A stretch of 64,000 nucleotides of DNA from Bacteroidota bacterium (GCA_024103355.1 JAGFIU010000031.1:1-64000), one strand, 5' to 3'; positions 13,901 through 59,258 are shown, counted from the first letter of the stretch. Numbers and translations: made by a program. Notes: a model not told the origin generated them from the letters alone.

Positions 13901-16900
13901 ATTATGAGAAAAATTGAGACTAATGATTTTGAGGCAGCGAATATTGACTACATAGAGATTTGGATGATGGATCCATTCAAATACAACCCAAATACAACCA
14001 ATAACGGGAAACTATACATAAACTTAGGAAATATCTCTGAAGATATCCTTCCTGACAGAAGAAAATCTTATGAAAATGGATTTCCTAAAAATGAAACTGA
14101 TAGAACTACCATCGATCAATCAACATTCGGATATGTTCCATTATTGCCGCAAATTAATTTTGCATTCGATAACGAAAGTTCATCCAGAACATTCCAAGAC
14201 ATAGGGCTTGACGGACTAAACGATAGTGAAGAAAGGGAATTTTATAAAGAAAAATTCTTAGATTCACTGGCAAATAATTTCGGAACTAACTCGATTATAT
14301 ATAAAATTGCATCCGCTGACCCCTCAGGAGATAACTATCTGCATAGTCGCGACCCGATTTATGACGACAAGAGTGCCAATATTATTGAACGTTATAAAAA
14401 ATACAATAATCATCAAGGAAACTCAACGTTAGAGCTATTACCTGACGGAAGTCCTAAATCATCTACAACAACCCCTGACGCAGAAGACATAAACAATGAC
14501 TTTACAATGAGCCAAAATGAGGATTATTTTCAATACTCAATCGATATTTCTCATAATTCACTTAAAATAGGACAAAACTTTGTAACTGACTCTATATCCA
14601 CAGAAGTAGAACTTAAGAATGGCCAAAAGGATAAGATAACTTGGTATCAATTCAAAATTCCAATCCGAAGCTATAACAAAGTTGTCGGAAATATTTCTGA
14701 CTTTAAATCTATTCGATTTATGAGGTTGTTTATGAAAGGATTTGAAGACTCAGTAATCTTGCGTATTGCCCAACTCCAATTAGTTCGATCCGATTGGCGA
14801 AGGCATCTTTCTTCCCTCAAGAATCCGGGTGTTTCACTTCCTATAGATCCTAATGATAAAACAGTGTTTTCTGTATCAACAGTTAATATTGAAGCAAATG
14901 GAAACAAAAAACCATTCCCATATGTAACCCCTCCAAATACTCCAAGAGAGATTGACCCAATAACTCCCGGTGCTGTAAAGAGGAACGAACAATCCATAGC
15001 GCTTAATTTCTGCAATCTAGCTCCTGATGATGCACGAGGAGCATTTAAAACAATGAATTTAGATATCCGAAATTATAAATACTTAAAAATGTTTGTTCAT
15101 GCGGAAGGCACGGATTTACAAGACAACGAACTAAGTGCATTTATACGACTTGGTACAGACGTGGTTGGAAACTATTATGAGTATGAAATTCCATTAAAAG
15201 TTAGCGAACTATTCAATACAGCAGACAACAATATCTGGCCGCTAGCTAATAATCTAAATTTTGAACTTGAAGAATTCTTTAAAACCAAACAAGAACGTGC
15301 AAATGCGGGTTCCCCAATGTCAAAACCTTTTGTAAGGTTTTTGGATGGAGGAGCAAGAGTAACTTTAATTGGGTTACCGGATTTAAGTAATGTAAGGGTT
15401 ATCATGATAGGAGTTCGCAACCGTTCCAATAGAGAACAATGTGGAGAAGTATGGTTCAATGAACTCAGAGTAACTGATATTTCAAATGGTGGTGGGTGGG
15501 CTGCTACAGGAAGGGTGGTGGCACAATTAGCTGACTTCTCTACTGTTAATCTTTCCGGCAGCATTAAAACCATCGGCTTTGGAGCAATTGATCAAAGACT
15601 TAATCAGCGAAGCCTTACCAACCAATACCAATATGATGTAAATTCAAATATTGAGCTAGGAAAATTTTTCCCACAGAAATTAGGGGTAACAATACCAATG
15701 TTCATTGGCTACAATGAAAATATCATTCGCCCTAAATTCAATCCATTAAACCCTGATATCGAATTAAGTACCACATTAAGTACCATTCATGATGCAGCAG
15801 AAAAAGAAAAAGTAAAACTCGCAGCAGAAGACTTTACCTCCAGATATAGTCTAAACTTTATCAACGTACGAAAGAACAGAGTAGAAAATAAAAAGCAAAA
15901 ACCTTGGGATATTGAAAATTTCAACCTCTCCTATTCTGTTCAAAAACTCTATAGACGCAACCAACAAATTGAAGAACAAATCCAGAATACATACAAAGGC
16001 AGTATTGGTTATATGTTTTCACTGCAACCAAAACCATGGGAACCTTTCAAAAAAATAAAATCAAAACACCTGACACTTATTAAAGACTTCAATCTATATC
16101 TGTACCCTCAATCTGCAAATATTCGTTTGGATATTGACAGGTATTATTCTGAACTGCAAAATCGGAGTAATGACTTATACAACAGTCCTACACCTCGTCT
16201 GTTTGACAAGAATTTTACAATCAACCGATTTTATACATTGGGGTGGCAAATCAGTAGAAATCTCAAATTTGATTATCAATCTACAGCAAACGGGCGCATA
16301 GGCGAACCGGTGGGGCGGCTTGATACAGAAGCTAAGCGCGATTCTGTTCGTAGAGAATTCTTTAGTATGGGAGAACTTTCCGGTTTTAACCAAACCGCCA
16401 ATCTTACATACACCATTCCTATTAATAAAATAAAATTCTTTAATTGGGTGCAAATCAATACACGCTACAGTGCAAACTTTGAGTGGCTACAACCACCACC
16501 CGCAGCACCGGGATTAGGAAGTACTATCCAAAACTCAAGATCAATCAATGGAAATGCAACCCTAAATTTAACTACATTTTATAATAAATTCAAAGTATTC
16601 AGGCAAATCAACTCCCCATCTCGAAATAACCGCCAAAATAACACTCAAGATTCTCCTAAGTCAAATGGCAAGGAGGACAAACAGGATAAAGGAATGTCAG
16701 GTGCTGCTAAAAATATTTTGCGTTTTATTACACTATTCAAACAAATTACTTTTAACTATACATCTACTAGTGGTATTGCACTTCCCGGATTCAACCAAAC
16801 TCCTGACTATTTTGGAAATAATTTTAATACAAATACTCCCGGATGGGACTTTATACTTGGTGGTCAAGACCCTTCTATTCGTTATAAATTAGCCGAACAA

Positions 16901-18064
16901 GGTTTCTTATCTCTTGACCCTCAACAAGCAAATTTCTATACTCAATTAGTTTCTAATTCAATTCAAAGTAAAATTACTGTAGAACCCATAAAAGATATGA
17001 GAATTGACTTTGATTTCAATCTCTCAGAATCAAGAAATATTCAGTCAAACTTCAGATTTGATCCGGACTCAACCGGGACTTTTAGAGATATTGGATTAAG
17101 AGAAGTTGGACAATTTACACGTAGTGGTATATTTTGGCGGACAGCCTTTGACAGACTAGATGGTGATAAAGAATCAAAAGTATTTAATCAATTTAAAGAC
17201 AATCGATATGTAATTGCTCAAAGACTTCAGAACCAAGATAATAGAGTCCAACATGGATGGATTGACAGTACTACAAAATACCCCGTTGGTTATTCCCAAA
17301 TCAATCCCGATGTGCTCATAAATTCATTTTATGCTGCTTATACCGGCAAAAATAATAGCAGAGTTGGTCTAAATATTTTCAAAAAAATGCCTCTGCCAAG
17401 CTGGCGTATGAGTTATAATGGGTTAGGAAAAATCGAAAGTTTAAAGAGATATTTTACAAGCATAAGTCTTACACACTCTTATAACGGTATATATTCATTC
17501 TCTAATTATACAAGCGAATTGAGATATAGTAAAACAGCTCAACCCGAGATTGGAACTGATTTTGTTTCTCAATATCAAGTAGGAAGCGTTACAATTACCG
17601 AAAACTTCTCACCTCTTGCCGGAATCAACATTGCAATGAAAAATGATTGGAATTTCAGATTTGAATATCGTAAGACGAGAATGGTCTCTTTGTTAGTTGC
17701 AAATCAACAACTTACAGAAAATCGCAGAAATGAATGGAGTATTGCTGTAGGATATAGAGCAAAAGAGGTTTTACTCCCAATCCGTTGGCGTGGAAAAAGA
17801 ATTTTCCTTAAAAATGATTTAAATTTCATGATGGACGTTTCTATGATGGACAATGTGATGATTAGACGAGATCTTACTACTCCTCTATCTGAACCGACAC
17901 AAGGCAGCAGAACACTTTCTATCAGACCAACATTAGACTATATGGTTAATGATCATATCAATCTAAGCCTATATTTTGACCACAGAAGAAATAAGCCTAA
18001 AACATCACAAGCATTCCCCACCTCATTAACTGAATTCGGTATTAAGATGCGTTATAACTTATAG
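10973..18064 (+). CDS. sprA: Type IX secretion outer-membrane translocon SprA (Sov)
   Basis: 2363 residues, matching the roughly 2400 residues of SprA. The start is GTG (10973), followed by a basic N-terminus and a signal sequence at about residues 25-42 (FIFFILFTIAFSSEA). The long body carries the family's blocks, such as the LSREEYMAEYSKKINREYFQ region, the GLIEIQPTGTAELTLGMNINRVKNP motif of the repeated SprA N-terminal domain, YIDDFEAAEVPFELRQP, and a C-terminal run of barrel strands ending FGIKMRYNL. SprA forms a very large single-chain barrel through which folded T9SS cargo crosses the outer membrane, and it is needed for gliding and surface adhesin export. No frameshift was seen across 7 kb. 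It follows ruvA and converges on dapF 13 bases away. Confidence 0.96.
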   Translation: MKRRILAKKLSDNFSSEIKSDKFLFKIFIFFILFTIAFSSEAKVYSVDSASTDSNSLRFPISKNGKGGGIDLPNPENVKEEVTFNSTTGKYEIRRRIGSRYLPGVRELSREEYMAEYSKKINREYFQNQGRAQNFSRGGSSKSPLLGILPNLTKFMGNGLIEIQPTGTAELTLGMNINRVKNPNFSTRMQKPPPQLIFDQNLQLGVTGNIGDRIKIGIKYDTKATFDFENQTKLDWVGKEDDILKKIELGNISMPLNSSLIQGGSSLFGFRTEMQFGRLTWSALFSQNRGQRTEQSVSNGAQTTEFNIQADMYEQNRHFFLSQYFYNNYDNALSNLPIISSGVVINRVEVWVTNKGGMFENTRDVVAFMDLAESNPYNNNVNTGNTTPYPSNEFNALYSTLASSNQARRASTSIDGITAAIPSFEPGFDYEYVNGARKLNENEYTLNTRLGYISLNQALNNDEVLGVAFEYTYNGQVYKVGEFSSEVAQDIDSRVLFIKMLKSTTVRTKIPMWHLMMKNIYSLNTNNLNLEDFYFDVVYADDPSGADLNYLPVENVPGISGGVPLLRVFNLDRINRQQEAKPDGIFDAIDGITINRQRGQVIFPVAEPFGSFLKNKFGGDSLLSEKYTFTSLYDSTRSLASQDVLKNKFFLKGKYKGTSSAEIMLNSMNVPPGSVQVFANGNKLKEGSDYIVDYNIGKVTILNQGILSSGANITVSSENQTMFNTQQKTMIGSRFDYAVNKKLNLGGTIMHMYERPLTPKTIIGEDPLMNTIFGFDGIYNSKSRFLTKLVDKIPFIETKEESSILIQAEYAQLIPGKPRSIEKNGERGISYIDDFEAAEVPFELRQPMNWKLASIPQKQPDLFPEWNNSVTDKTSWLNYRSQIAWYTVDPTFYRNDRNTPQHIKDDIEMQSNHYMREVTIREVYQNRELQQGVPNILPTLDIAFFPKDRGPYNYNANTSDFNSDGTFNNPTKSWSGIMRKIETNDFEAANIDYIEIWMMDPFKYNPNTTNNGKLYINLGNISEDILPDRRKSYENGFPKNETDRTTIDQSTFGYVPLLPQINFAFDNESSSRTFQDIGLDGLNDSEEREFYKEKFLDSLANNFGTNSIIYKIASADPSGDNYLHSRDPIYDDKSANIIERYKKYNNHQGNSTLELLPDGSPKSSTTTPDAEDINNDFTMSQNEDYFQYSIDISHNSLKIGQNFVTDSISTEVELKNGQKDKITWYQFKIPIRSYNKVVGNISDFKSIRFMRLFMKGFEDSVILRIAQLQLVRSDWRRHLSSLKNPGVSLPIDPNDKTVFSVSTVNIEANGNKKPFPYVTPPNTPREIDPITPGAVKRNEQSIALNFCNLAPDDARGAFKTMNLDIRNYKYLKMFVHAEGTDLQDNELSAFIRLGTDVVGNYYEYEIPLKVSELFNTADNNIWPLANNLNFELEEFFKTKQERANAGSPMSKPFVRFLDGGARVTLIGLPDLSNVRVIMIGVRNRSNREQCGEVWFNELRVTDISNGGGWAATGRVVAQLADFSTVNLSGSIKTIGFGAIDQRLNQRSLTNQYQYDVNSNIELGKFFPQKLGVTIPMFIGYNENIIRPKFNPLNPDIELSTTLSTIHDAAEKEKVKLAAEDFTSRYSLNFINVRKNRVENKKQKPWDIENFNLSYSVQKLYRRNQQIEEQIQNTYKGSIGYMFSLQPKPWEPFKKIKSKHLTLIKDFNLYLYPQSANIRLDIDRYYSELQNRSNDLYNSPTPRLFDKNFTINRFYTLGWQISRNLKFDYQSTANGRIGEPVGRLDTEAKRDSVRREFFSMGELSGFNQTANLTYTIPINKIKFFNWVQINTRYSANFEWLQPPPAAPGLGSTIQNSRSINGNATLNLTTFYNKFKVFRQINSPSRNNRQNNTQDSPKSNGKEDKQDKGMSGAAKNILRFITLFKQITFNYTSTSGIALPGFNQTPDYFGNNFNTNTPGWDFILGGQDPSIRYKLAEQGFLSLDPQQANFYTQLVSNSIQSKITVEPIKDMRIDFDFNLSESRNIQSNFRFDPDSTGTFRDIGLREVGQFTRSGIFWRTAFDRLDGDKESKVFNQFKDNRYVIAQRLQNQDNRVQHGWIDSTTKYPVGYSQINPDVLINSFYAAYTGKNNSRVGLNIFKKMPLPSWRMSYNGLGKIESLKRYFTSISLTHSYNGIYSFSNYTSELRYSKTAQPEIGTDFVSQYQVGSVTITENFSPLAGINIAMKNDWNFRFEYRKTRMVSLLVANQQLTENRRNEWSIAVGYRAKEVLLPIRWRGKRIFLKNDLNFMMDVSMMDNVMIRRDLTTPLSEPTQGSRTLSIRPTLDYMVNDHINLSLYFDHRRNKPKTSQAFPTSLTEFGIKMRYNL

Positions 18065-41081: not shown

Positions 41082-41933
41082 ATGAAAAAAGTTACTCTTA
41101 CAATTGTATTGGTTATCTGCAGTCAACTCGTGTATTCTCAAGGGATTCTTGACCGGATTAACAAAAAGATTGGCATTAACATCAATATCAATCCGAATGG
41201 GAATCAAACAAACAACAGCAATTCTACTCATACTGAATCAAATAATAACACCAGCGATTCGAGTACTCCAACATTTAACTTTTCCGGTTTAGGGCAAAAT
41301 AATAAATGTAAAGTTGAAAAAGAATATACTTTTCAGACTGCGTTTGTAAGCGATTTTTACTCATACACTCAATCAGGAAAAGGAAAAAGTAAAGATAGTT
41401 TTAGCATGCAATATTCCTTACTATTTGAAAACAGTGGATTCTATATGGGAACAAAAGTCAATGACATAAGCAATCAAAAAGATTTTTCAGGTATGCAAAT
41501 GATAATTAGCATGAGAGATAGCTGTATTATCTCCCTTATTGATTCAAAAGAAAGTAAAATTGGGATGAGTCTTTCTTATAAAGGTAACAATGACAAGAGT
41601 AATCACACATCTCTGCCAAACTTTGTTAAGACAGGAAAAACTAAGACAATTCTAGGACAATTATGTTTTGAGTATATTGCCGAAGATGAAACTCTTAAAC
41701 AAACTCATTGGATATCAGAAAAAGATAGCAAGGTTTGGGATATATACTACAAAAACGGATATAATACCATTCCACAATCAAATATAAAGGGCTTAAATGC
41801 AAGCAAAATTGGGATTCCACTTGAATCGATAATTGAGCATAAGAAAGAAAAAACCATCAATCATATTTTTGTGAGAGAAATTAAGAAAAATCAAAATATC
41901 AAGATTAGCAGTGAAGGTTACATATTTTATTGA
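41082..41933 (+). CDS. Secreted DUF4412-like protein
   Basis: 283 residues. The signal peptide MKKVTLTIVLVICSQLVYSQ is followed by an Asn/Ser/Thr-rich low-complexity stretch (about 35-65) and a beta-rich domain with the DUF4412 features VKTGKTKTILGQLCFEYIAEDETLKQTHWISEKD. Such proteins are periplasmic or outer-membrane associated, of unknown function. An inverted repeat overlaps its promoter, so it may be tightly regulated. It converges with the OstA-like gene and overlaps it by 7 bases. Confidence 0.65.
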   Translation: MKKVTLTIVLVICSQLVYSQGILDRINKKIGINININPNGNQTNNSNSTHTESNNNTSDSSTPTFNFSGLGQNNKCKVEKEYTFQTAFVSDFYSYTQSGKGKSKDSFSMQYSLLFENSGFYMGTKVNDISNQKDFSGMQMIISMRDSCIISLIDSKESKIGMSLSYKGNNDKSNHTSLPNFVKTGKTKTILGQLCFEYIAEDETLKQTHWISEKDSKVWDIYYKNGYNTIPQSNIKGLNASKIGIPLESIIEHKKEKTINHIFVREIKKNQNIKISSEGYIFY

Positions 41934-43462
41934 GTTTCTTTATTTTTTCTTAGAAAGAACTCATCTTGCTGAGGTTTAAGTTGGATTAGCCAATTTAAGC
42001 CATCCAATGTTTTTTCATTTTCTGGTATTTCGGTTGGAGGATAAAGAATTCCGGCAGGTTCCGGATTTGGATAAAAACGAATATTGTTAATTCCTGCAGA
42101 ATCAAGATAAATGGTAATTTGTCCGCTTGCAATTTTATTTACACCACTATAAGCACTTGTATCTGTCTCATCTTCTCTAACATAATAAATCGATTGTGCT
42201 TGTCCAATCATATTAACTTTATTCAATTTGCCCTCCACAAAATAGTTGTATATTTTGTCCCCGGCCATCTGATTAAATCTATCTTCACCAAGCCATGAAG
42301 CGACAAAGCCGGTGTTGCGAACATACATATAATCGAGTTGCTTGTTTTTCATATAAACAGTAATGGTATCTCCCGTAATCTGATTGTTTTCATTCCACAA
42401 AATAGGGTTATTAAGTAAGAGAATTACGGAATCTTTCATAAAATAAATCAAGGTATCGCTTTTGCCGGAGATATCGGGAGAGAAAATTTTGGAATTTCTA
42501 AAAGCAACCAACTTTTTGAGTGCGGTATCAGAGAAATAATAGAAAGTGTCAGCCAACAAGAGCATGGTATCTTCATTCATCATTCTTTCGCTCATTGGTA
42601 AACCACTGATGATAGTCTCCTTCTTTTTTTCCATGTATAAACCCTTCTGACCATAAACTTTTATACCTTCTGAAGTATCATTCATAACAATATTTCCAAA
42701 TGCCTGACCATCTCCTGTATTGCGGTTATAGAAAAAACTATCTGCTGAAATATCAGAAACTTCTCCAAAAATAGTGGCTCTCTTACTAAAAGAAGCAAGG
42801 TTGGAAGCCGTATTATAATATCCCCAAGTACACTCTATCCTGTTTTGTTCACTTTGAATAACTGTCGGACCAAAAAAGTACGCAATTCTCCCGAGAGTAT
42901 TGTATTGTAGAGTATCACCTTTCATTGTGTACTCAGGATTTATCAAAACAACATCTTCTTTAAAAGAGGCTGTACTCGTTCTGGAGTTATAATACCCTTT
43001 TTTGCTCGTGAGCACATCATTTTCATTCACAATTTTACCACCGGCACTATATGAGCCACTTTTTGACCGCGTATCATAGTCAATAAAAGGAGTAGTAAGA
43101 GTCATTTTTCTGTCATTAAGCACAACATCTCCTGAAACCCTTGCAATCTTTGTTTTACCATCATAAAAAACCCTTGAACCACGCATATCAAAAGTATCCG
43201 GCTGGTAGATATAGACATTACCTACGCCATCGATCGTGTTATATTTATCATTGATAACCGCAGAATCACACTGAATATATACACCCTCATGAAGTACTTT
43301 GATATTACCTTTGCAATACTTTGACTGTGTTGCAGCATCAAAACGCAACTCATCTGTATTGATAATCTGAATCTTCTGTGCCTCCACATACAGAACTCCA
43401 AAAACAATGCAGAATGTCAATATGTATTTTTTCAAAACCGGCAGTTTAGTAGAAGTTAACAC
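41927..43462 (-). CDS. OstA/LptA-like periplasmic protein
   Basis: 511 residues. After a signal peptide (ILTFCIVFGVLYVEAQ), repeated LptA-type strands occur (QIINTDELRFDAATQSKYCKGNIKVLHEGVYIQCDSAVIND; DGVGNVYIYQPDTFDMRGSRVFYDGKTKIARVSGDVVLND). This matches the OstA-like N-terminal family of Bacteroidota. LptA bridges LPS across the periplasm to LptD; this longer form has many more strands and may be a combined bridge. The small gene next in the operon and ftsH overlap end to end, so the three are probably transcribed from the ftsH promoter. Confidence 0.8.
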   Translation of the reverse strand: MLTSTKLPVLKKYILTFCIVFGVLYVEAQKIQIINTDELRFDAATQSKYCKGNIKVLHEGVYIQCDSAVINDKYNTIDGVGNVYIYQPDTFDMRGSRVFYDGKTKIARVSGDVVLNDRKMTLTTPFIDYDTRSKSGSYSAGGKIVNENDVLTSKKGYYNSRTSTASFKEDVVLINPEYTMKGDTLQYNTLGRIAYFFGPTVIQSEQNRIECTWGYYNTASNLASFSKRATIFGEVSDISADSFFYNRNTGDGQAFGNIVMNDTSEGIKVYGQKGLYMEKKKETIISGLPMSERMMNEDTMLLLADTFYYFSDTALKKLVAFRNSKIFSPDISGKSDTLIYFMKDSVILLLNNPILWNENNQITGDTITVYMKNKQLDYMYVRNTGFVASWLGEDRFNQMAGDKIYNYFVEGKLNKVNMIGQAQSIYYVREDETDTSAYSGVNKIASGQITIYLDSAGINNIRFYPNPEPAGILYPPTEIPENEKTLDGLNWLIQLKPQQDEFFLRKNKETQ

Positions 43463-47217: not shown

Positions 47218-47874
47218 TTATCTATCCCTTCCTTTCATTCTTTTACGAATTCTGATATTAGCTTTACTTTCATTTCCTGCAACAAGGCGTTTGATATTCT
47301 TTTGATGTGTTAAAATAACCATAATTGCTGCAGAAATACCAAAGGCCACAAATAGAGGTTCATCAGGTTTAAAAATAAAAATAAGTAATAGTGGGAATGA
47401 TATGGTTGCTAATATTGAACTTAGAGAAACATATTTAGTAGAAAAAAGTACAATAAGAAATAGACTTATACATATCAATGCTGGAACATAATGAATCCCA
47501 ATTACCATCCCTAAAAGTGTTGCAATTCCTTTTCCACCTTTAAAATTTGCAAAAACGGGAAATACATGTCCAACAACAGCCATTAAACCAAACAAGAGTT
47601 GCAAGTTTACAAATCGTGCTGAATAGATATCAACAAATCCTAAGAGCCAAGGTAATGATGCAGCAATAAGTCCTTTTGATACATCCATCATTAAAACTAA
47701 AATACCGGCTTTAGTACCTAGTACACGGAAAGTGTTTGTTGCTCCGGCATTTCCGCTTCCAAATTCTCTAATATCTTTTTCGTAAAGTGCTTCTCCGACC
47801 CATATACTACTTGGAATAGACCCGAGTATGTATGCTAAAAATGATAGTCCGAGTATAATAAGAGTTTCTGTCAA
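47218..47874 (-). CDS. plsY: Glycerol-3-phosphate acyltransferase PlsY
   Basis: 218 residues with about five membrane segments. The three PlsY catalytic motifs are visible: SIPSSIWVG near residue 20, GSGNAGATNTFRVLG at about 40-54 and the glycine-rich VFANFKGGKGIATLLGMVIG at about 108-127. It acylates glycerol-3-phosphate using acyl-phosphate in the first step of phospholipid synthesis. It has its own promoter inside the end of the upstream large gene, so it can be expressed separately. Confidence 0.94.
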   Translation of the reverse strand: MTETLIILGLSFLAYILGSIPSSIWVGEALYEKDIREFGSGNAGATNTFRVLGTKAGILVLMMDVSKGLIAASLPWLLGFVDIYSARFVNLQLLFGLMAVVGHVFPVFANFKGGKGIATLLGMVIGIHYVPALICISLFLIVLFSTKYVSLSSILATISFPLLLIFIFKPDEPLFVAFGISAAIMVILTHQKNIKRLVAGNESKANIRIRKRMKGRDR

Positions 47875-47904: not shown

Positions 47905-47936
47905 CAAAGATAATCTAATTTCAGCAATCATTCAAA
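47905..47936 (-). promoter_or_regulatory. Promoter of plsY
   Basis: The minus strand has TTTG (47933-47936), a 20-base spacer and TATCTTTG (47905-47912). The -33 element lies within the last codons of the 1491-residue gene. The predicted leader is about 26 bases. Confidence 0.65.
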
Positions 47937-50900
47937 CCGCCTAAACAATTTTTCCACTGAACGAGGGGTCCCTCTTCGAAGACTATATGAGTCATTGGAA
48001 ATCTTTTCTCCTTTCTCCAATATGATTTGGTTGAATTTATCGTCTGTAGAATATGCATACATTACTCCACGTACATAATTTAAATATAAAAACTCATTGG
48101 GATTAAATTCAATATAAATATGAATATCATCTCCGCTCCTTTTCTTATCTACTACAATAATCGCCCCAAAACTTTTATTGATATTTACACCATTAATGGA
48201 TGCAATATCTACAGAACCGTTACAAATAAAAGCATTCAGCCTATTATCAAAACGCCAATTTGAAGAAGCAACAAAAATCATAGCCTTCTCCGGTGACCTT
48301 TCATTTACTTCTTTTATATACAAATCCGGATCAAAAACCTCTTTTACTTTATCGGTTGCTTTGCCAACAGTTTTGAAAAATTGGCTGGTTGCAACAATAT
48401 TTTCGGAATTCAATAATCCACTGTTTAAAACTCTGCTCACAATAGCCTTCGAAGCAGTTGTGGTTGAATAAAACTCTGTCAAATTTGTTGCAAATGTGCT
48501 TGTTTTGATACTGGTTGCTGTTCCATAGTTTTCATTTTTTGCAATTTCTACCATACGTGTAACAGCCTCTTTTGGCAACGGAAAATCAAAATAAAATGAC
48601 CAATCAAATTGATAGGTTGTATCCCCTTCTTTCCAATTTGTAGAACCGGCAAAACCTGATTTTATTCCGGGTTTTACATTCAGACTAAGGTCAAAACTAC
48701 CTTCGGCTTTGATTGTTCTATTCTTATCATTTACTCTGATAACATTGCCCCTTTCTTCTTTTTCAAATAATTTACCTTTATCACCGACCACAATATCTCC
48801 GGTATTGTGATCATAATAAAATACTCCTGAATCAAGTGTTACTTCGGGATTTGAATACGCTTGTTTCATCCCGAATAACATAGGATATATCCTCACGCTA
48901 TCTCCTGCAACAAACAACCCTGACAACAAAGGTCTGTTATCCACATTTCTTGGATTATTTACATCAATCACAACATCCATTGCATCCATTTCTCCTTTGA
49001 ACCGCACCCACTGACCTGCAACATAATCCATAGAGTGAATAGGTTTCACAAATCCTGTATAAACTATGGGTTTATCAGTACTCACAATCTTTGCCCAACC
49101 CTTATACCCTATCTTAACATCCAAATAAAAACTTTGAGAGTCTGGGATATAACCAACCCCAACCAAATGTTTTTCATCATCAATTTTGATAGAATCCATA
49201 TTGATGATATGTTGTTCTCCCAATTTGGTCTTATAATCATACCATCCACTTGCTCGAATATTATTCTTACCGTTTATTTTGGTGTGTGCATTATAGATTT
49301 TATGATACTTATCAATTCTGTTGGCTTCAATCAAAGAACTGTCGAGTCTGTCCATATCAGCATCTATGCGTACGATTGCTTTTCCATTAAAAGGATAAAC
49401 TCTTGAATCAGCAACATCAATATAGGGGATTTTGTCCATATACACTACATTCTCTTTCATGTCAAAGTCGGCATAAGAGCATTCAAATTTGAGTGAATCC
49501 TGATCTGCTTTTGTGGATACAAAGAAAGGTTTTACCGCAGGGAACTTAGCGTTGGGACGCATTTCCATTCTTTTGTCATCCATTTTCCAAGTATAATCAC
49601 TGAGTATTGTACCATATTGGTTTACAGGCAAATATGTCATGTTATTGGGTGAGTTGGCAATAAAATTACCTTTTCTTTTATCAAAATCTATATGAGATTC
49701 AACATCTGATGTTTGGAAAGCAAAAACTTGCGGGTCGATAGAAAAAATGCGGATACCGGAAGTATCAGCATCCACTTTGTTTTTGCCGTAAATCATGTTC
49801 TTTGAATAAAATTCAGCTTCACTCCATTCCAACTGACCGTTGCCGGCAAGTGCAGATGGCGATAATGTGAGAGTACCTCCGAATTTATATTGTGTTTGAA
49901 AAACATTGAATTTTTCTGTGTTATCAGAAATCAGCATTTTGTCTTCGTAAGGCAACCATCGAGAAGATACATCAACACCCGAAACAAGGGGATATTTTGA
50001 ACTCTCCGGCAAATCAAAAGTTTTGCTCCTTGATTGTGTTTCTTTGGGGAAAATTAAGAAATCATCGCTGTTTGTCTTTGAGGTCAGATATTGAATTTCT
50101 CCATTTCCGTATAATCCTTTGTTACTCAACGATATCGTCATCTTAGCATTTCCTTTGCTTTTGTACATAGGCAAATCAATGTCCTTCACAAAACCAAGAG
50201 AATAATCAGGTTGTATGGTGAGTTCATATCTAAAATCAGGAAAAATATCTGCTGATATGAAAGTACCGGGCAGCTTAAGGTTGGCTGCAGTAAAGTCATT
50301 GAGATTGGTGATTCGAAAAGGATCTACTCCAAAGTAAAAACTCTCTTTTTTATATACAAAATTGTGTGTTTGTTCATATTCATAATGCACTTTAGACCCT
50401 CTTTCAGAAGTAAAAATGGGATAGTCAGGGTAGTCCTTTTTCTTCAACCCTGATTTATTCTTTGGATAATCAAACTCAATAGTTCCATACAAATCGGATA
50501 AAACAGACTGCACTTTGCGCAGTGCTTTGGTGGTTTCATCCGGATAATACAATACCATGGAATCATAATATGTATCCCGAATCATAAAGGAGTTATAATC
50601 AAAATTAAATGCTTTTGAATAAAAATCTACCTTGCCTGCCCTTACAATTCCGCCAAAAGTCATATTACGGTCTCTTTTGATAAGCACTTGCTGCTCATTT
50701 GGCACAGCTATACAATTTTGGCTATCACTAAAAGTGAATTTTCTAACCCCTTCAATCTGCAAATTCATGTTGTTCAAACTCAATGTTACATTAGGTCTGG
50801 CCGAAATCACAGAAATCATCCTGATAACATCATAATCACGAACTTTCATGTAATTATTGACATAGTTAAAAAGTCGGTCTCTAATTTCTATAGAGTCCGT

Positions 50901-52403
50901 TTTCATATCATAATAGATATATCCGTCATCAGCCAAATTAATTATCTGCTCTTGGATATATTCTTTCTTACTTCCATAGAAAGCACAGTAGTCTTCCAAA
51001 TGAAATTTTCTTTGTCGTGTTTTGATTGAGTAATCCCTCATTCTGTAAAGCGGGTTATATGCTAATATTCCCTGTACTTTTTCATATCTAAACTCTTTGA
51101 AAAAGTCATTTGATTCTATCGCAACCGGCTTATCGGCAGACATATTCCTAAACTCAACGTAAGGTGTATTTTGTTTCCATATAATTCTCTCCGCATCAAT
51201 ATCAACTCCATGAAAATCATCTTGGAATGTCATTTGCATCAACCCCTTCTCTCCTTTATTTATTACTAGCTCCTTTTTATTGAAATCATATCGTGCTTCA
51301 ACGGCAGGATGAAATATTGTTTTGTTGGAGTCCAACAAGATAGTAAAAGAAGTATTCAAACTCTGAACCACTCCGGCATCTATCTTAAATGATTTTGATT
51401 GAAGAATGACACGCGGTTTCTTGTCTTGGAGTAAGGTGATTGTAACCGGGTCAGAATCCACATTATCTCCTGTGATTACTTTACCTAATAAGCTAAAACC
51501 TCCGCTGTATGTAGCCATATCTCCCACAAGACCGTCTATTTTAACATTGCCTTTATAACTGGAAAACTTGGGATAGTTGCCATTGGTCAGTTGCTCTTGG
51601 CTTGTAGTAAACGAAACTTGGTCAGTCAGTCTCCCCAATACATCTCCCTTAAAATATTTAGGATAGCGCAAATAAGCGCTGTCTGCGGTGTATGTGCTGC
51701 CTGCCAAATCAATATTATAGTTTGTAAGTCTGCATGAAGCATCTTCTTCAGCTAAACCAACTCTTTCCCAATTAATTTTTCCGTTTTTCCCAACCCAACT
51801 AACCTTATCAGGATAAAAAGTTCCTTCTGTATCAAATATTTTCATCTTATCCAAAAAAGCCTCTCCTGTAAGATTTAGGTATTTAAATTTAATTGCTAAC
51901 CTATTACCATCATATATCAATTCAAATTTGTTATTGTCTGCATACCATTTTAGCTGGTCTGTACTATAGAGAATGTTTTCCGCAAAAAGTTTATTGGCAG
52001 TTTGCAGAAATGCCAAATACTCTTTGGTATTCTTAGCAAGCAATTTCCCGCTGATTCCCTGCCATTGGGTAAGAACTTTTTTGTCAATATTATTGGCCAA
52101 ATAGAAGTTTATAGTGCTTACGAATAGTTCAAAATAAGGTTGTACAGTGAGTTTTCTAAAAAGCATATCCTCACAGATATCGCGAATCGCTGATTTTTCT
52201 TTTATATCAAATTTTCCTGCATCCCATGCTGCTTTAAATTTCTGGGCTTCTTTGGCAACATGCTCCTGGCCATTGTCTGTCATGTGTTTTACCAATTCAT
52301 TGATAAAAACTTCGGGGTCCGGAGAAAAACTTTTCTGTTGTGCTTTCAGCAGAGTAAAAGAGAACAAAAAAATAATCGAGAGAAAAATTCTAATTTTATT
52401 CAT
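47928..52403 (-). CDS. Large secreted protein of unknown function (1491 residues)
   Basis: A signal peptide (about 1-22, MNKIRIFLSIIFLFSFTLLKA) is followed by a helical domain of roughly 100 residues (VFINELVKHMTDNGQEHVAKEAQKF...). The rest is very long and beta-rich, with recurring short strands and turns (KGDVLGRLTDQVSF; GNAKMTISLSNKGLYGNGEIQY; ALAGNGQLEW; GKGNFIANSPN-type blocks). No transmembrane helix, catalytic motif, CHU_C or Por sorting domain is seen. The style recalls OstA/LptA, AsmA or TamB-like bridge proteins, but no family can be assigned. It probably stands in the periplasm or at the inner face of the outer membrane. It lies between tpiA and plsY on the same strand. Confidence 0.75.
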   Translation of the reverse strand: MNKIRIFLSIIFLFSFTLLKAQQKSFSPDPEVFINELVKHMTDNGQEHVAKEAQKFKAAWDAGKFDIKEKSAIRDICEDMLFRKLTVQPYFELFVSTINFYLANNIDKKVLTQWQGISGKLLAKNTKEYLAFLQTANKLFAENILYSTDQLKWYADNNKFELIYDGNRLAIKFKYLNLTGEAFLDKMKIFDTEGTFYPDKVSWVGKNGKINWERVGLAEEDASCRLTNYNIDLAGSTYTADSAYLRYPKYFKGDVLGRLTDQVSFTTSQEQLTNGNYPKFSSYKGNVKIDGLVGDMATYSGGFSLLGKVITGDNVDSDPVTITLLQDKKPRVILQSKSFKIDAGVVQSLNTSFTILLDSNKTIFHPAVEARYDFNKKELVINKGEKGLMQMTFQDDFHGVDIDAERIIWKQNTPYVEFRNMSADKPVAIESNDFFKEFRYEKVQGILAYNPLYRMRDYSIKTRQRKFHLEDYCAFYGSKKEYIQEQIINLADDGYIYYDMKTDSIEIRDRLFNYVNNYMKVRDYDVIRMISVISARPNVTLSLNNMNLQIEGVRKFTFSDSQNCIAVPNEQQVLIKRDRNMTFGGIVRAGKVDFYSKAFNFDYNSFMIRDTYYDSMVLYYPDETTKALRKVQSVLSDLYGTIEFDYPKNKSGLKKKDYPDYPIFTSERGSKVHYEYEQTHNFVYKKESFYFGVDPFRITNLNDFTAANLKLPGTFISADIFPDFRYELTIQPDYSLGFVKDIDLPMYKSKGNAKMTISLSNKGLYGNGEIQYLTSKTNSDDFLIFPKETQSRSKTFDLPESSKYPLVSGVDVSSRWLPYEDKMLISDNTEKFNVFQTQYKFGGTLTLSPSALAGNGQLEWSEAEFYSKNMIYGKNKVDADTSGIRIFSIDPQVFAFQTSDVESHIDFDKRKGNFIANSPNNMTYLPVNQYGTILSDYTWKMDDKRMEMRPNAKFPAVKPFFVSTKADQDSLKFECSYADFDMKENVVYMDKIPYIDVADSRVYPFNGKAIVRIDADMDRLDSSLIEANRIDKYHKIYNAHTKINGKNNIRASGWYDYKTKLGEQHIINMDSIKIDDEKHLVGVGYIPDSQSFYLDVKIGYKGWAKIVSTDKPIVYTGFVKPIHSMDYVAGQWVRFKGEMDAMDVVIDVNNPRNVDNRPLLSGLFVAGDSVRIYPMLFGMKQAYSNPEVTLDSGVFYYDHNTGDIVVGDKGKLFEKEERGNVIRVNDKNRTIKAEGSFDLSLNVKPGIKSGFAGSTNWKEGDTTYQFDWSFYFDFPLPKEAVTRMVEIAKNENYGTATSIKTSTFATNLTEFYSTTTASKAIVSRVLNSGLLNSENIVATSQFFKTVGKATDKVKEVFDPDLYIKEVNERSPEKAMIFVASSNWRFDNRLNAFICNGSVDIASINGVNINKSFGAIIVVDKKRSGDDIHIYIEFNPNEFLYLNYVRGVMYAYSTDDKFNQIILEKGEKISNDSYSLRRGTPRSVEKLFRRFE

Positions 52404-52482: not shown

Positions 52483-53250
52483 TCAACCCACTGCTTTGAT
52501 AATTTCACAGAAATCTCTGGATTTGAGTGAGGCTCCTCCAATCAATCCACCATCTATATCAGGTGCGGAAAACAATTCCTTTGCATTATCGGGCTTAACA
52601 CTACCCCCGTATAAAATCCGAATTTGAGCAGCAGTTTCAGGGCTAAAAATTTCAGCTAACTCCTCTCTGATATATGAGTGTACATCTTGAGCTTGTTCGG
52701 TTGAAGCTGTCTTTCCCGTGCCAATAGCCCAAACAGGTTCATAGGCAATAACCATTTTTTCCGGAGCAATTTCAGCACTTATTCCTTCCAATCCTTCCCA
52801 TAGCTGTGTTTTTAAGACATCCCAAAAATCTCCATTTTCTCTTTCTTCCAAAGTTTCGCCAATGCAATAAATAGGTACCAATCCTCCTGAAATCGCTCTT
52901 TTTATTTTTAGATTGAGTAACTCATTGTCTTCCGAAAAGTATTGTCTGCGCTCTGAGTGGCCTATTATAACATAAGAACAACCCACACTCTTGAGCATTG
53001 ACACAGAAATCTCTCCGGTGTAAGCACCCACGTTTTCCTGATGTACGTTTTGTGCACCTAATAAAATAGGGTGCTTTTCTATGTTTTTTGCAATTGAAGC
53101 AAGACTGATATAAGGTGGAAAAAGAATAATCTCCGCATCATTGCGAACCTCGTCTTTCACTATTCCTTTTATCTCTGTAACCAAGCCCAATGCCTCATTG
53201 AGGTCATTGTTCATTTTCCAGTTTCCGGCAACAATTTTCCTTCTCTTCAT
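52483..53250 (-). CDS. tpiA: Triosephosphate isomerase
   Basis: 255 residues from ATG 53250; a start at 53328 would place 26 extra residues before MKRRKIVAGNWKMN and overrun the promoter. Catalytic residues N10, K12, H98 (VIIGHSE) and E171 (IAYEPVWAIGTG) are present, with the phosphate loop YGGSVKPDN. It interconverts dihydroxyacetone phosphate and glyceraldehyde-3-phosphate in glycolysis. It is transcribed alone or with the large gene downstream (79-base gap). Confidence 0.96.
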   Translation of the reverse strand: MKRRKIVAGNWKMNNDLNEALGLVTEIKGIVKDEVRNDAEIILFPPYISLASIAKNIEKHPILLGAQNVHQENVGAYTGEISVSMLKSVGCSYVIIGHSERRQYFSEDNELLNLKIKRAISGGLVPIYCIGETLEERENGDFWDVLKTQLWEGLEGISAEIAPEKMVIAYEPVWAIGTGKTASTEQAQDVHSYIREELAEIFSPETAAQIRILYGGSVKPDNAKELFSAPDIDGGLIGGASLKSRDFCEIIKAVG

Positions 53251-53275
53251 TTTATCTTTTTCTTTTGACTTGCCG

Positions 53276-53283
53276 CAAAAATA
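53276..53283 (-). promoter_or_regulatory. -7 box for tpiA
   Basis: The minus strand reads TATTTTTG, 25 bases before the start at 53250. This position rules out the longer upstream start for tpiA. Confidence 0.5.
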
Positions 53284-53442
53284 AGGTTTTATATCCCTTG
53301 GTTTGTGTTGAATGTTTAGTAAAATCAAAATGGTTCTTTTTGTTCAATAACAATAATATAAAATATCACAGTACTCACTTCCTCCTTACATGATTTCACA
53401 GCCATAATATCCAATTTCTCATTTTGTTTTAGTACGAGTACT

Positions 53443-55622: not shown

Positions 55623-56363
55623 ATGCAAGCAGCATCAAAAACAATAAAGCCTGACATGGAATCAGACCTTGGGAAAAAAGACCAAGTTGTCATCATGTTT
55701 GATTCCATTTCGCGCAGATATGACTTTCTGAATCGTTTTCTTTCTCTTGGGATTGACCAATCATGGAGAAAGAAAGCTGTTAAAAGCCTTCTCCCCATTA
55801 ACCCTAAAAAGATTCTGGATATTGCAACGGGAACCGCTGATTTGGCCATTGCAGCGACAAAGTATGCACAACCAGAATCAATTATCGGGGTGGATATTTC
55901 ATCCGGGATGTTAAAAATCGGAGAGAAAAAAGTGCAAAAACTTGGCTTGCAAAAGACTATCACATTAAAAATCGAGGACTCAAGTAGTTTATCCTTTGCT
56001 GACAACACATTCGATGCTGTTACGGTTGGTTTTGGAGTGCGAAATTTTGAAAATATGGAAGCAGGACTTGCTGAGATATACAGGGTTATTCGTCCGGGAG
56101 GGATGCTTGCAATCTTGGAATTCTCTCAGCCTACCACGATCATTGTTAAGCAATGCTATAATTTTTATTTTAAAACAATTTTACCCGCTTGGGGGCGTTT
56201 ATTCTCTGGAAGCAACAAAGCTTATTCATACTTACCGGCTTCTGTTTTGGCATTTCCTGATGGAAAAAGATTTTTGGACATACTCGAAAAACTTGGTTTT
56301 AAAGAACCTAAACAAAGAAAATTAACTTTTGGAATTTGCAGTTTGTACGTTGCCATAAAATAG
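55623..56363 (+). CDS. menG: Demethylmenaquinone methyltransferase MenG (UbiE)
   Basis: 246 residues. MenG/UbiE hallmarks: YDFLNRFLSLGIDQSWRKKAV, SAM motif ILDIATGTADLAIAA, VDISSGML, ENMEAGLAEIYRVIRPGGMLAILEFSQP and a C-terminal LTFGICSLYVAIK. It makes menaquinone from demethylmenaquinone, so the organism respires with menaquinone. The menG-porT order is shared with gliding Bacteroidota. Its 3' end overlaps the porT start by 28 bases. Confidence 0.94.
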   Translation: MQAASKTIKPDMESDLGKKDQVVIMFDSISRRYDFLNRFLSLGIDQSWRKKAVKSLLPINPKKILDIATGTADLAIAATKYAQPESIIGVDISSGMLKIGEKKVQKLGLQKTITLKIEDSSSLSFADNTFDAVTVGFGVRNFENMEAGLAEIYRVIRPGGMLAILEFSQPTTIIVKQCYNFYFKTILPAWGRLFSGSNKAYSYLPASVLAFPDGKRFLDILEKLGFKEPKQRKLTFGICSLYVAIK

Positions 56364-57055
56364 GATTATTTCTTTTGCTGATTTTTGTTGGATTCAGTGC
56401 CAATGCACAGCGAATCAAGCGTATCAGAGGAGGAGAGATAGACCCATTGCGTTATGAAAGAAAGCCTTTTCACATGGGTTTTTCTATTGTTGCCGATTAC
56501 GGCAAATTCAAAATTATTCCCGAGAACAACTTTCTTTCTCAAGATTCATTATTGAGTATTAGAACTCAGGGGTTCCCCGGGTTTGGTATAGGCGGCATTT
56601 TGAATCTCCGCATATCCAAACATTGGCATTTTCGCACCTTACCTCAATTACATTTTAATCAACGCAATGTCTTTTTTCAGTTTAAAGATAGAGTTGATAT
56701 GATTGAGGTTGAAAGTGTAACATTTGATTTACCAATGCTAATCAAATATAGGGGAGAAAGACATAATAACTACAACATGTATGTCATTGGAGGAGCACGC
56801 CTGACACATGATTTTAGTGCAAAAGAGGACAAACAACGCGGTCCATTAATAAGACAAGTAGCACTCAAGAAACAATCTGTTGCTTATGAATTCGGATTTG
56901 GATTTGATATTTATACAACCTATTTCAAATTTTCTCCTGAAATAAAGATGTCTAATTCCCTTACCAACATGATTTCAAAAGATACCTATATTTATAATGG
57001 GTCAATAGGCTTCCTCCAAACCAGATTATTTCAAATTTCACTTCACTTTGAATAA
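56336..57055 (+). CDS. porT: Type IX secretion protein PorT (SprT)
   Basis: 239 residues from TTG 56336; the only closer option is a TTG inside the signal peptide. It carries a signal peptide (about 8-25, IGLFLLLIFVGFSANAQ) followed by the short PorT barrel: RGGEIDPLRYERKPFHMGFSIVADYGKFKI, then GFPGFGIGGILNLRISKHWHFRTLPQL, then SVTFDLPMLIKYRGERHNNYNMYVIGGA and LTNMISKDTYIYNGSI. PorT is an outer-membrane T9SS component needed for gingipain-type and gliding export. The gene lies between menG (28-base overlap) and tgt (adjacent). Confidence 0.88.
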   Translation: MQFVRCHKIGLFLLLIFVGFSANAQRIKRIRGGEIDPLRYERKPFHMGFSIVADYGKFKIIPENNFLSQDSLLSIRTQGFPGFGIGGILNLRISKHWHFRTLPQLHFNQRNVFFQFKDRVDMIEVESVTFDLPMLIKYRGERHNNYNMYVIGGARLTHDFSAKEDKQRGPLIRQVALKKQSVAYEFGFGFDIYTTYFKFSPEIKMSNSLTNMISKDTYIYNGSIGFLQTRLFQISLHFE

Positions 57056-58174
57056 ATGAAATTCACCATTACTCACTCTCAACCCGACAGCAATGCCAGA
57101 GCAGGCAGTATCGAGACCGAACACGGCACAATCCAAACTCCTGTTTTCATGCCTGTTGGGACTCAAGCAACAGTGAAGGGTATTTATAGAGAACAACTCA
57201 GTGAGGATTTGAAAGCAAAGATAATCTTAGGCAACACATACCATCTTTATCTCAGACCCGGAACGGATATCATAAAACAAGCCGGAGGTTTACATAAATT
57301 TATTGGTTGGGAAAATGCAATGCTGACTGACAGCGGAGGATTTCAAGTATATTCTTTGTCTGAAAACAGAAAACTGAACGAAGAAGGCGCTGATTTCAAA
57401 TCTCATATCGATGGTTCAAAGCACTTTTTTACTCCTGAAAATGTGATGGATATACAAAGGATAATCGGGGCTGATATTATGATGGCTTTTGACGAATGTG
57501 CTCCTTATCCCTGCACACACGAATATGCAGAAAAGAGCATGGAACTCACACATCGCTGGCTCAAAAGGTGTATCAAGCGTTTTGATAGCACTGAACCTTT
57601 ATACGGTTATAAACAAACTCTTTTTCCTATCGTACAAGGCAGTGTCTATAATGATTTAAGAAAGCGTTCAGCCGAATTTGTCGCCTCTTGCGAAAGAGAA
57701 GGGAATGCTATTGGCGGAGTATCTGTGGGCGAACCTACTGAACTAATGTATGAAATTACCGAAACTGTCTGTGCCATTCTTCCAAAGGATAAACCACGAT
57801 ATTTGATGGGAGTGGGCAAACCTGAAAACATTTTAGAAGCCATCTCTATGGGAGTTGATATGTTTGACTGTGTAATGCCTACTCGTAACGGCAGAAACGG
57901 AACTGTATTCACTACCGAAGGAATTATCAACCTTAAAAATACCAAATGGAAAGATGATTTTTCTCCATTAGACCCAATATTAACACCGGAATACTCAAAA
58001 GCATATATAAAACATCTTTGCATGGCTCAAGAAATGCTTTTTGCAATGGTAGCAAGCAGACAAAACCTGAAACTATATATGTGGTTGATGGAAAATGCGC
58101 GTGAAAAAATCAAAGAAGGTAATTTTGAAAGCTGGAAAAAACAAATTCTCCCCAAACTCACTAAGCGATTATAA
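57056..58174 (+). CDS. tgt: Queuine tRNA-ribosyltransferase
   Basis: 372 residues, TIM-barrel Tgt. Catalytic D92 (LTDSGGFQV), the FDECAPYP substrate loop (146-153), GGVSVGEP (220-227) and the second aspartate D271 (DCVMPTRNGRNG) are present. It exchanges guanine for queuine precursor in the anticodon wobble position. The CXCXXC zinc motif expected near residues 303-309 is replaced by SPLDPIL, while the following KAYIKHL is kept; I recall this loss as a phylum trait. Its ATG directly follows the porT stop. Confidence 0.92.
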   Translation: MKFTITHSQPDSNARAGSIETEHGTIQTPVFMPVGTQATVKGIYREQLSEDLKAKIILGNTYHLYLRPGTDIIKQAGGLHKFIGWENAMLTDSGGFQVYSLSENRKLNEEGADFKSHIDGSKHFFTPENVMDIQRIIGADIMMAFDECAPYPCTHEYAEKSMELTHRWLKRCIKRFDSTEPLYGYKQTLFPIVQGSVYNDLRKRSAEFVASCEREGNAIGGVSVGEPTELMYEITETVCAILPKDKPRYLMGVGKPENILEAISMGVDMFDCVMPTRNGRNGTVFTTEGIINLKNTKWKDDFSPLDPILTPEYSKAYIKHLCMAQEMLFAMVASRQNLKLYMWLMENAREKIKEGNFESWKKQILPKLTKRL

Positions 58175-58178
58175 CCCC

Positions 58179-59258
58179 ATGCTAAAAAAGCTCGATACCT
58201 ATATTATAAAAACTTTTCTTACCACTTTTTTGGTAACAATCGGGCTGTTCAGTATTATTATTATTGTCTTTGATATTAGCGAAAAATTGGATGATTTTCT
58301 AGAAAACAAAGCGCCTCTCAAAGAAATCGTTTTTGACTATTACTTCAATTTCATTCCACAGATTATGAATATGTTTAGCCCCATATTTGTATTTGTATCA
58401 GTTATTTTTTTTACTTCAAAAATGGCACAACGGACTGAAATCGTATCTATTTTAGCTTCCGGTATTTCTTACAGAAGATTTCTAAGACCATATATTTTAA
58501 CTGCATTAATGCTGGGTATAATTTCATTTTTCCTCAATGGATGGCTTATTCCTCATGCAGATAAAAAGCGAGCAGATTTTGAGAATAAGTACACACGCAA
58601 CATGCTTCACTCCCGCTCAGGAATTCACCGCCAAATCAAACCCGATGTTTTTCTCTCAATCGAATGGTTTAGCCAATATGATAGTTCAGGTACAAATATT
58701 ACATTGGAAAGATATAAAAACAATCAACTAGTATCTAAAACTTATGCCCGAAGAATGAGTTTTAATTATTCATCAAATAAATGGCAATTGCAAGATGTGT
58801 TTTCGCGTGAATATAACAAGGATGGCAGTCAGACAATTCATACATATAACACTCTAGACACAGCAATACGATTTAACCCTGCCGATTTTTTTCTCAGAGT
58901 CGAAGACTTGCAAACCTTTGACAATAATGAACTTAACAAAATTATCAATGCGGAAAGAGAAAGAGGCTCAGAAAATGTTTATTTATATACCACAGAAAAA
59001 TACAGGCGTATGGCATCGCCTTTTTCTACCTTTATTTTAACAATTATCGGTGTTTGTGTTTCCTCCAAAAAATCGCGCGGAGGAATCGGTGTGAATCTTG
59101 GATTTGGGATTGGCTTGAGTTTTGGCTTTTTATTTATTGTTCAGTTTTTTAATAGCTATGGTGCAACAGGGCTGATAAGTGCTCCAATTGCAGTGTCCAT
59201 ACCAAATATTTTGTATTTAGGGGTTGCATGGATTCTGTATAAAAAAGTTCAGAAATAG
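58179..59258 (+). CDS. LptF/LptG-family lipopolysaccharide permease
   Basis: 359 residues from ATG 58179; an upstream start at 58095 lies inside tgt. There are three N-terminal helices (IIKTFLTTFLVTIGLFSIIIIVF), a jellyroll periplasmic domain (about 150-260) and three C-terminal helices (MASPFSTFILTIIGVCVSSKKSRGGIGVNLGFGIGLSFGFLF), the YjgP/YjgQ layout. The LptB2FG complex extracts LPS from the inner membrane. It is the last gene of the menG operon; the partner permease and LptB lie elsewhere. Confidence 0.9.
   Translation: MLKKLDTYIIKTFLTTFLVTIGLFSIIIIVFDISEKLDDFLENKAPLKEIVFDYYFNFIPQIMNMFSPIFVFVSVIFFTSKMAQRTEIVSILASGISYRRFLRPYILTALMLGIISFFLNGWLIPHADKKRADFENKYTRNMLHSRSGIHRQIKPDVFLSIEWFSQYDSSGTNITLERYKNNQLVSKTYARRMSFNYSSNKWQLQDVFSREYNKDGSQTIHTYNTLDTAIRFNPADFFLRVEDLQTFDNNELNKIINAERERGSENVYLYTTEKYRRMASPFSTFILTIIGVCVSSKKSRGGIGVNLGFGIGLSFGFLFIVQFFNSYGATGLISAPIAVSIPNILYLGVAWILYKKVQK

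Follow-up and report, generated by a model that had tools for sequence, protein, structure and literature searches.

The window, a stretch of 64,000 nucleotides from a Bacteroidota bacterium (GCA_024103355.1, JAGFIU010000031.1:1-64000), carries on its reverse strand an intact open reading frame for a giant exported protein of 1491 aa, which starts with ATG and has full-length homologues. The frame was noted in a preliminary description of the window, and that observation is confirmed here. It lies between tpiA, upstream, and plsY, directly downstream and encoding a phospholipid-synthesis enzyme; beyond plsY there is a kbl-type class I/II aminotransferase gene on the opposite strand. The genes of the window referred to in this analysis are as follows.

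10973-18064, forward strand: SprA, 2363 aa
41082-41933, forward strand: 283-residue open reading frame between a PrmC-like gene and ostA, no Pfam match
41927-43462, reverse strand: OstA-like protein with an LptD_N match and two stretches of OstA_2, located shortly after ftsH and a short open reading frame
47218-47874: plsY
47928..52403, reverse strand: giant exported protein
52483-53328, reverse strand: tpiA
56336-57055, forward strand: barrel-type outer-membrane protein (PF13568), possibly PorT-like
58095-59258, forward strand: LptF/LptG-type permease, its open frame overlapping the end of tgt

Export features and gene neighbourhood

The N-terminus of the giant protein (MNKIRIFLSIIFLFSFTLLKAQQ) reads by eye as a type I signal peptide, as had been claimed previously, and the absence of transmembrane segments reported with it also holds in a Kyte-Doolittle scan. 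Beyond residue 60, no segment of 19 residues passes a mean of 1.6 in this protein, nor in 56 out of 57 family members, and a lipobox is absent from the first 40 residues of every member scanned. By eye and by hydrophobicity, the protein reads as exported and soluble, without a membrane anchor.

The gene order around the frame is partly retained. As in the window, plsY follows the giant gene in 18 of 60 loci from the same order and in two loci of a distant family, and tpiA precedes it in 34 of the 60. In the distant families (loci L142-L153) prmA often takes the preceding position (7 of 12 loci), with tpiA before prmA in two loci. The order tpiA-prmA-giant gene-plsY may therefore be ancestral. 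Both tpiA and prmA have housekeeping functions. The neighbourhood lends weak support to a role in envelope transport. The preliminary description had also pointed to an OstA-like gene and LptG elsewhere in the window. Both are present, but carry little weight, being separate units at least about 4.5 kb from the giant gene. Based on its two OstA_2 stretches and LptD_N match, the OstA-like protein probably holds at least two taco units. With SprA and the PF13568 protein, type IX secretion genes are also found within the window.

Sequence searches and distribution of the family

The earlier statement that no family is recognisable by sequence stands. Searched as a single sequence, the giant protein has a best E of 0.24 in Pfam and 0.088 in NCBIfam, with no family in either, and 3.5 against the PDB; a profile of the family run against the PDB gives a best E of only 0.68, again with no recognised family. 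There was no match in a plasmid collection, and no account of the family was found in literature searches. Specifically, the LptA/OstA models (PF03968 and PF13100) are not matched by Pfam in 30 members, nor does the protein or its family match the LptD barrel (PF04453, PF19838) or the TamB/AsmA profiles (PF04357, PF05170). Profile comparison by hhalign with 28 OstA sequences reaches at most 4 per cent, which is not significant, and a weak alignment of residues 967-999 to OstA is likewise not significant. A Pfam match to C1q in one member (E 0.0005) was dropped, being unsupported by the other 29.

Relatives in genome contigs were found by an alignment-based search, which returned 204, of which 80 were kept; a single-sequence search returned none. 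Full-length relatives are mostly of 1460-1580 aa, with the protein present in 37 of the 38 relatives sampled. An alignment of 30 relatives over the full length has a mean column identity of 49 per cent. The gene is single-copy in 104 of 108 genomes of its own order, including genomes of 1.5-2 Mb, and 63 of the 64 good genomes of the order (completeness of 90 per cent or more, contamination of 5 per cent or less) carry it. Across the phylum, with two candidates scored per genome, 14 of 395 sampled Bacteroidota genomes were positive, one of these being the window's own genome. The others are spread over five further families of the same class, their frames being 1495-1857 aa long at 21-28 per cent identity. 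A second search used a wider profile and scored four candidates in each genome; it added no positives among 118 genomes. A third, in which every candidate was scored, left 20 negatives of other families and one genome of the window's own family without a match; all that these 21 genomes gave were stray matches to winged-helix proteins and a single weak one at the N-terminus. On these counts, this is a core gene of one order, near-universal there and patchy elsewhere in the class.

Between the window gene and that of an 89 per cent identical congener, pN is 0.065 and pS is 0.74, so the gene is under strong purifying selection. Together with the family alignment, this indicates conservation beyond chance, and the single-copy presence throughout the order combined with a pN far below pS points to a core function. 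Conservation is highest at residues 521-600, 641-760, and 961-1000, and lowest in the stretch 1321-1360. The term orphan, applied to the protein in the preliminary description, is thus apt only in the sense that the family is unnamed; it is a conserved core family rather than a genomic orphan.

Predicted fold, internal duplication, and inserted domain

Two overlapping AlphaFold2 models, of residues 20-1000 and 640-1491, were each made from a 71-sequence alignment, with mean pLDDT of 91.0 and 90.6, respectively; because pTM is only 0.67 and 0.66, how the domains sit relative to one another is uncertain. About 96 strands are predicted. In order, the models have six helices (about 30-142), a beta region (about 144-435), a small helical domain with two strands (about 437-520), a beta body (about 523-1273), a poorly conserved helical linker (about 1278-1370), and a beta-plus-helix domain (about 1376-1491). 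Neither the N-terminal helical domain, searched against Pfam, nor the C-terminal domain matches a family. The features of the protein, all on the reverse strand, are listed here from the N-terminus, with their basis.

52341..52403, reverse: signal peptide, residues 1-21, boundary by eye at ...LLKA-QQ (sequence, hydrophobicity scan)
51978..52316, reverse: predicted N-terminal domain of six helices, residues about 30-142 (AlphaFold2 model)
51150..51716, reverse: first beta-rich copy, residues 230-418, duplicated as 769-948
50844..51056, reverse: inserted winged-helix domain, residues about 450-520 (profile matches, fold match, model)
50658..50837, reverse: motif block DYDVIR...EGV..F.FSDSQ, residues 523-582, among the best conserved stretches
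50010..50189, reverse: repeat unit a, residues 739-798, containing GNGEIQY (hhalign with unit b)
49746..49925, reverse: repeat unit b, residues 827-886, containing GNGQLEW (hhalign with unit a)
49407..49919, reverse: predicted beta-taco like those of LptD_N, LptA, and LptC, residues about 829-999 (VIA-align fold match)
49350..49505, reverse: second copy of the motif block, residues 967-1018, with ..IPYIDVADSR (hhalign)
47931..48278, reverse: predicted C-terminal beta-plus-helix domain, residues about 1376-1491 (AlphaFold2 model, conservation)

Fold comparison of the model of residues 20-1000 by VIA-align places LptD first (Z 13.5, rmsd 3.1 A over 151 residues), with LptA at Z 11.6 and LptC at Z 11.4. 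The first 19 rows are all LptD, LptA, or LptC, with Z from 8.8 to 13.5 and located at residues about 806-1000, and the first unrelated row has Z 7.3. For models that have no clear match the best Z is usually 7 to 8, therefore a value of 13.5 heading a uniform list of Lpt proteins is meaningful. The model of residues 640-1491 concurs, with LptC and LptA at Z 11.0 and LptD at up to 9.8; across the two models LptA superposes at 2.6-3.3 A over 119-124 residues (Z 11-11.6). Foldseek alone also ranks LptD first for both (E 1.3e-4 and 5.1e-5) and, weakly and further down, the lipid carriers ApoB100 and microsomal triglyceride transfer protein. Residues of about 829-999 are thus predicted to share the beta-taco fold of LptD, LptA, and LptC, the fold through which these three proteins join end to end. 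The previously suggested likeness to lipid-bridge proteins is accordingly upheld by structure prediction for the Lpt components. AsmA and TamB are not among the fold matches listed for either model, an absence that does not exclude them. Hydrophobic alternation, taken strand by strand, is mixed and does not discriminate.

The two motifs that had been picked out from the sequence, GNGEIQY at residue 766 and GNGQLEW at residue 854, are present 88 residues apart and mark a real internal repeat of that length, since residues 739-798 align with 827-886 (hhalign, 90 per cent, E 1e-6). Comparison of the profile with itself also supports an older duplication, of the beta half: residues 230-418 align with 769-948 (72 per cent over 176 columns) and residues 523-582 with 967-1018 (67 per cent). 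These two pairs are collinear, and their offsets differ by about 95 residues, which is near the length of the helical domain between 418 and 523. On the simplest reading, the beta body would have arisen by duplication of taco units, after which the first copy received an insert; that copy would also be expected to fold as a taco. The larger duplication, the insert, and the N-terminal helical domain had not featured in the preliminary description.

The insert was identified through the two best weak matches among the 21 genomes without the family, which are winged-helix regulators. In two of these genomes, the stray profile matches are a DtxR-type repressor and an IclR-type regulator, both matching through their winged-helix domains and to nearly the same profile positions, 456-516. 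A profile of the insert alone has 41 matches in the PDB, most to winged-helix regulators (best E 0.003), and the winged-helix domain of Apaf-1 matches this region of the model with Z 7.3 over 73 residues. With the two-strand wing of the AlphaFold2 model, the insert has the form of a helix-turn-helix with a wing. It is retained throughout the family, including in distant members. One subclade (L027, L028, L029, L030, L076, L116, L122, L133) has an extra 48-49 residues at residue 459, inside the winged-helix region. A winged helix within an exported protein is unusual and ordinary gene regulation is unlikely there; protein docking is a natural guess for its role.

Comparison with known systems and possible function

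Each of the known systems resembles the giant protein in part. The N-terminal domain of LptD (PF03968, LptD_N) is like residues of about 829-999 in fold, although with about 8 per cent identity and without recognition by the Pfam model, and LptD continues into a C-terminal outer-membrane barrel, whereas the giant beta body is followed in the model by the helical linker and small beta-plus-helix domain, with no recognised barrel. LptA/OstA-like proteins are likewise soluble, exported, and of beta-taco fold, but the giant protein is some 8-10 times longer, has internal duplication and helical, winged-helix, and C-terminal domains, and has no significant profile match to them. LptC (PF06835) is similar in fold (Z 11-11.4), however it has an inner-membrane anchor, while the giant protein, by eye and hydrophobicity, has only a cleavable-type signal peptide. 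TamB and AsmA share its large size and beta-rich body, and differ in the inner-membrane anchor and in the absence of Pfam and listed fold matches. The giant protein belongs to a new family without a name, in which the predicted Lpt fold takes on a giant form with several domains and no anchor.

An LptD (LptD_2, on another contig), an OstA/LptA-like protein, TamB, and AsmA are all encoded elsewhere in the genome, as is the LptF/G permease in the window. There is therefore no gap in known lipid transport that would need a giant protein, which is an addition rather than a substitute; the idea that it replaces an absent LptD, OstA, or TamB was rejected. Nor is there anti-correlation with TamB, present in 40 of the 40 genomes tested, with and without the family; AsmA matches are missing only in some of the family-free genomes among them.

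Because Lpt beta-tacos carry the acyl chains of LPS (PMC10353723), a lipid or glycolipid carrier or bridge is placed first among the possible functions. The giant protein would be a soluble periplasmic protein of duplicated Lpt-type beta-tacos that binds and shields hydrophobic cargo between the inner and outer membranes, a reading given a probability of about 0.45. The Lpt fold matches, the duplication, the core conservation, and the adjacency of plsY suggest this, while the lack of a significant OstA/LptA profile match, the mixed alternation, and the housekeeping neighbours count against it. The fold match would imply a continuous hydrophobic groove in the interior, the cargo would most likely be the acyl chains of a lipid or glycolipid, and duplication of taco units would be a way to build a long taco. 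As the protein has no anchor of its own, the helical, winged-helix, and C-terminal domains may be docking parts for membrane partners. It would work in parallel with the ordinary Lpt and TAM systems of the cell. A further proposal, of a dedicated giant trans-periplasmic lipid conduit, soluble, distinct from the Lpt and AsmA/TamB bridges, built by duplicating Lpt-type beta-tacos, docked through the helical and winged-helix modules, and core to envelope building in the order, is doubtful.

Somewhat unlikely is a TamB-like factor for the assembly of outer-membrane or secreted proteins, with taco edges that would serve as a template or shield for unfolded beta-strands instead of lipids. In Flavobacterium johnsoniae TamB, which also has a beta-taco, and its partner TamL are essential, and without TamL the proteome of the outer membrane is disturbed much more strongly than the lipidome (PMC12045153). 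Protein-binding modules are also what the helical and winged-helix domains of the giant protein resemble. However, the giant protein is without an inner-membrane anchor, the listed fold matches for both models include Lpt proteins and neither TamB nor AsmA, though such absence is no proof, and TamB itself occurs whether or not the family does.

A periplasmic protein with a mainly structural or adaptor role, perhaps linked to type IX secretion and with the beta-taco serving merely as a rigid rod, is unlikely, if not to be dismissed. It would accommodate the large size, the several extra domains, and the lack of an anchor, and sprA lies within about 10 kb of the giant gene in 15 of the 60 order loci. 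This linkage is limited to part of the order, however, and neither Pfam nor fold comparison gave any link to type IX components. Moreover, most sampled Bacteroidota genomes are without the family, although type IX secretion is widespread in the phylum. Least probable is that the giant protein belongs to the LPS transport bridge as an additional part in contact with OstA/LptA or LptD. Although the nearest folds are the bridge components LptA, LptC, and LptD, none of the 60 loci shows linkage of the gene to the ostA or lptF/G of the window, and most sampled Bacteroidota do without it, though they generally have the Lpt system.

The route by which phospholipids and unusual lipids reach the outer membrane in Bacteroidota is poorly understood. 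As a near-universal, unnamed protein of predicted Lpt fold, the giant protein of this order is a concrete new candidate for lipid delivery, for which a carrier of hydrophobic cargo is the preferred reading. The predictions suggest that proteins missed by every sequence library can still conceal the Lpt fold, and that exported proteins can contain winged-helix domains; other exported families may be worth a look for the latter.
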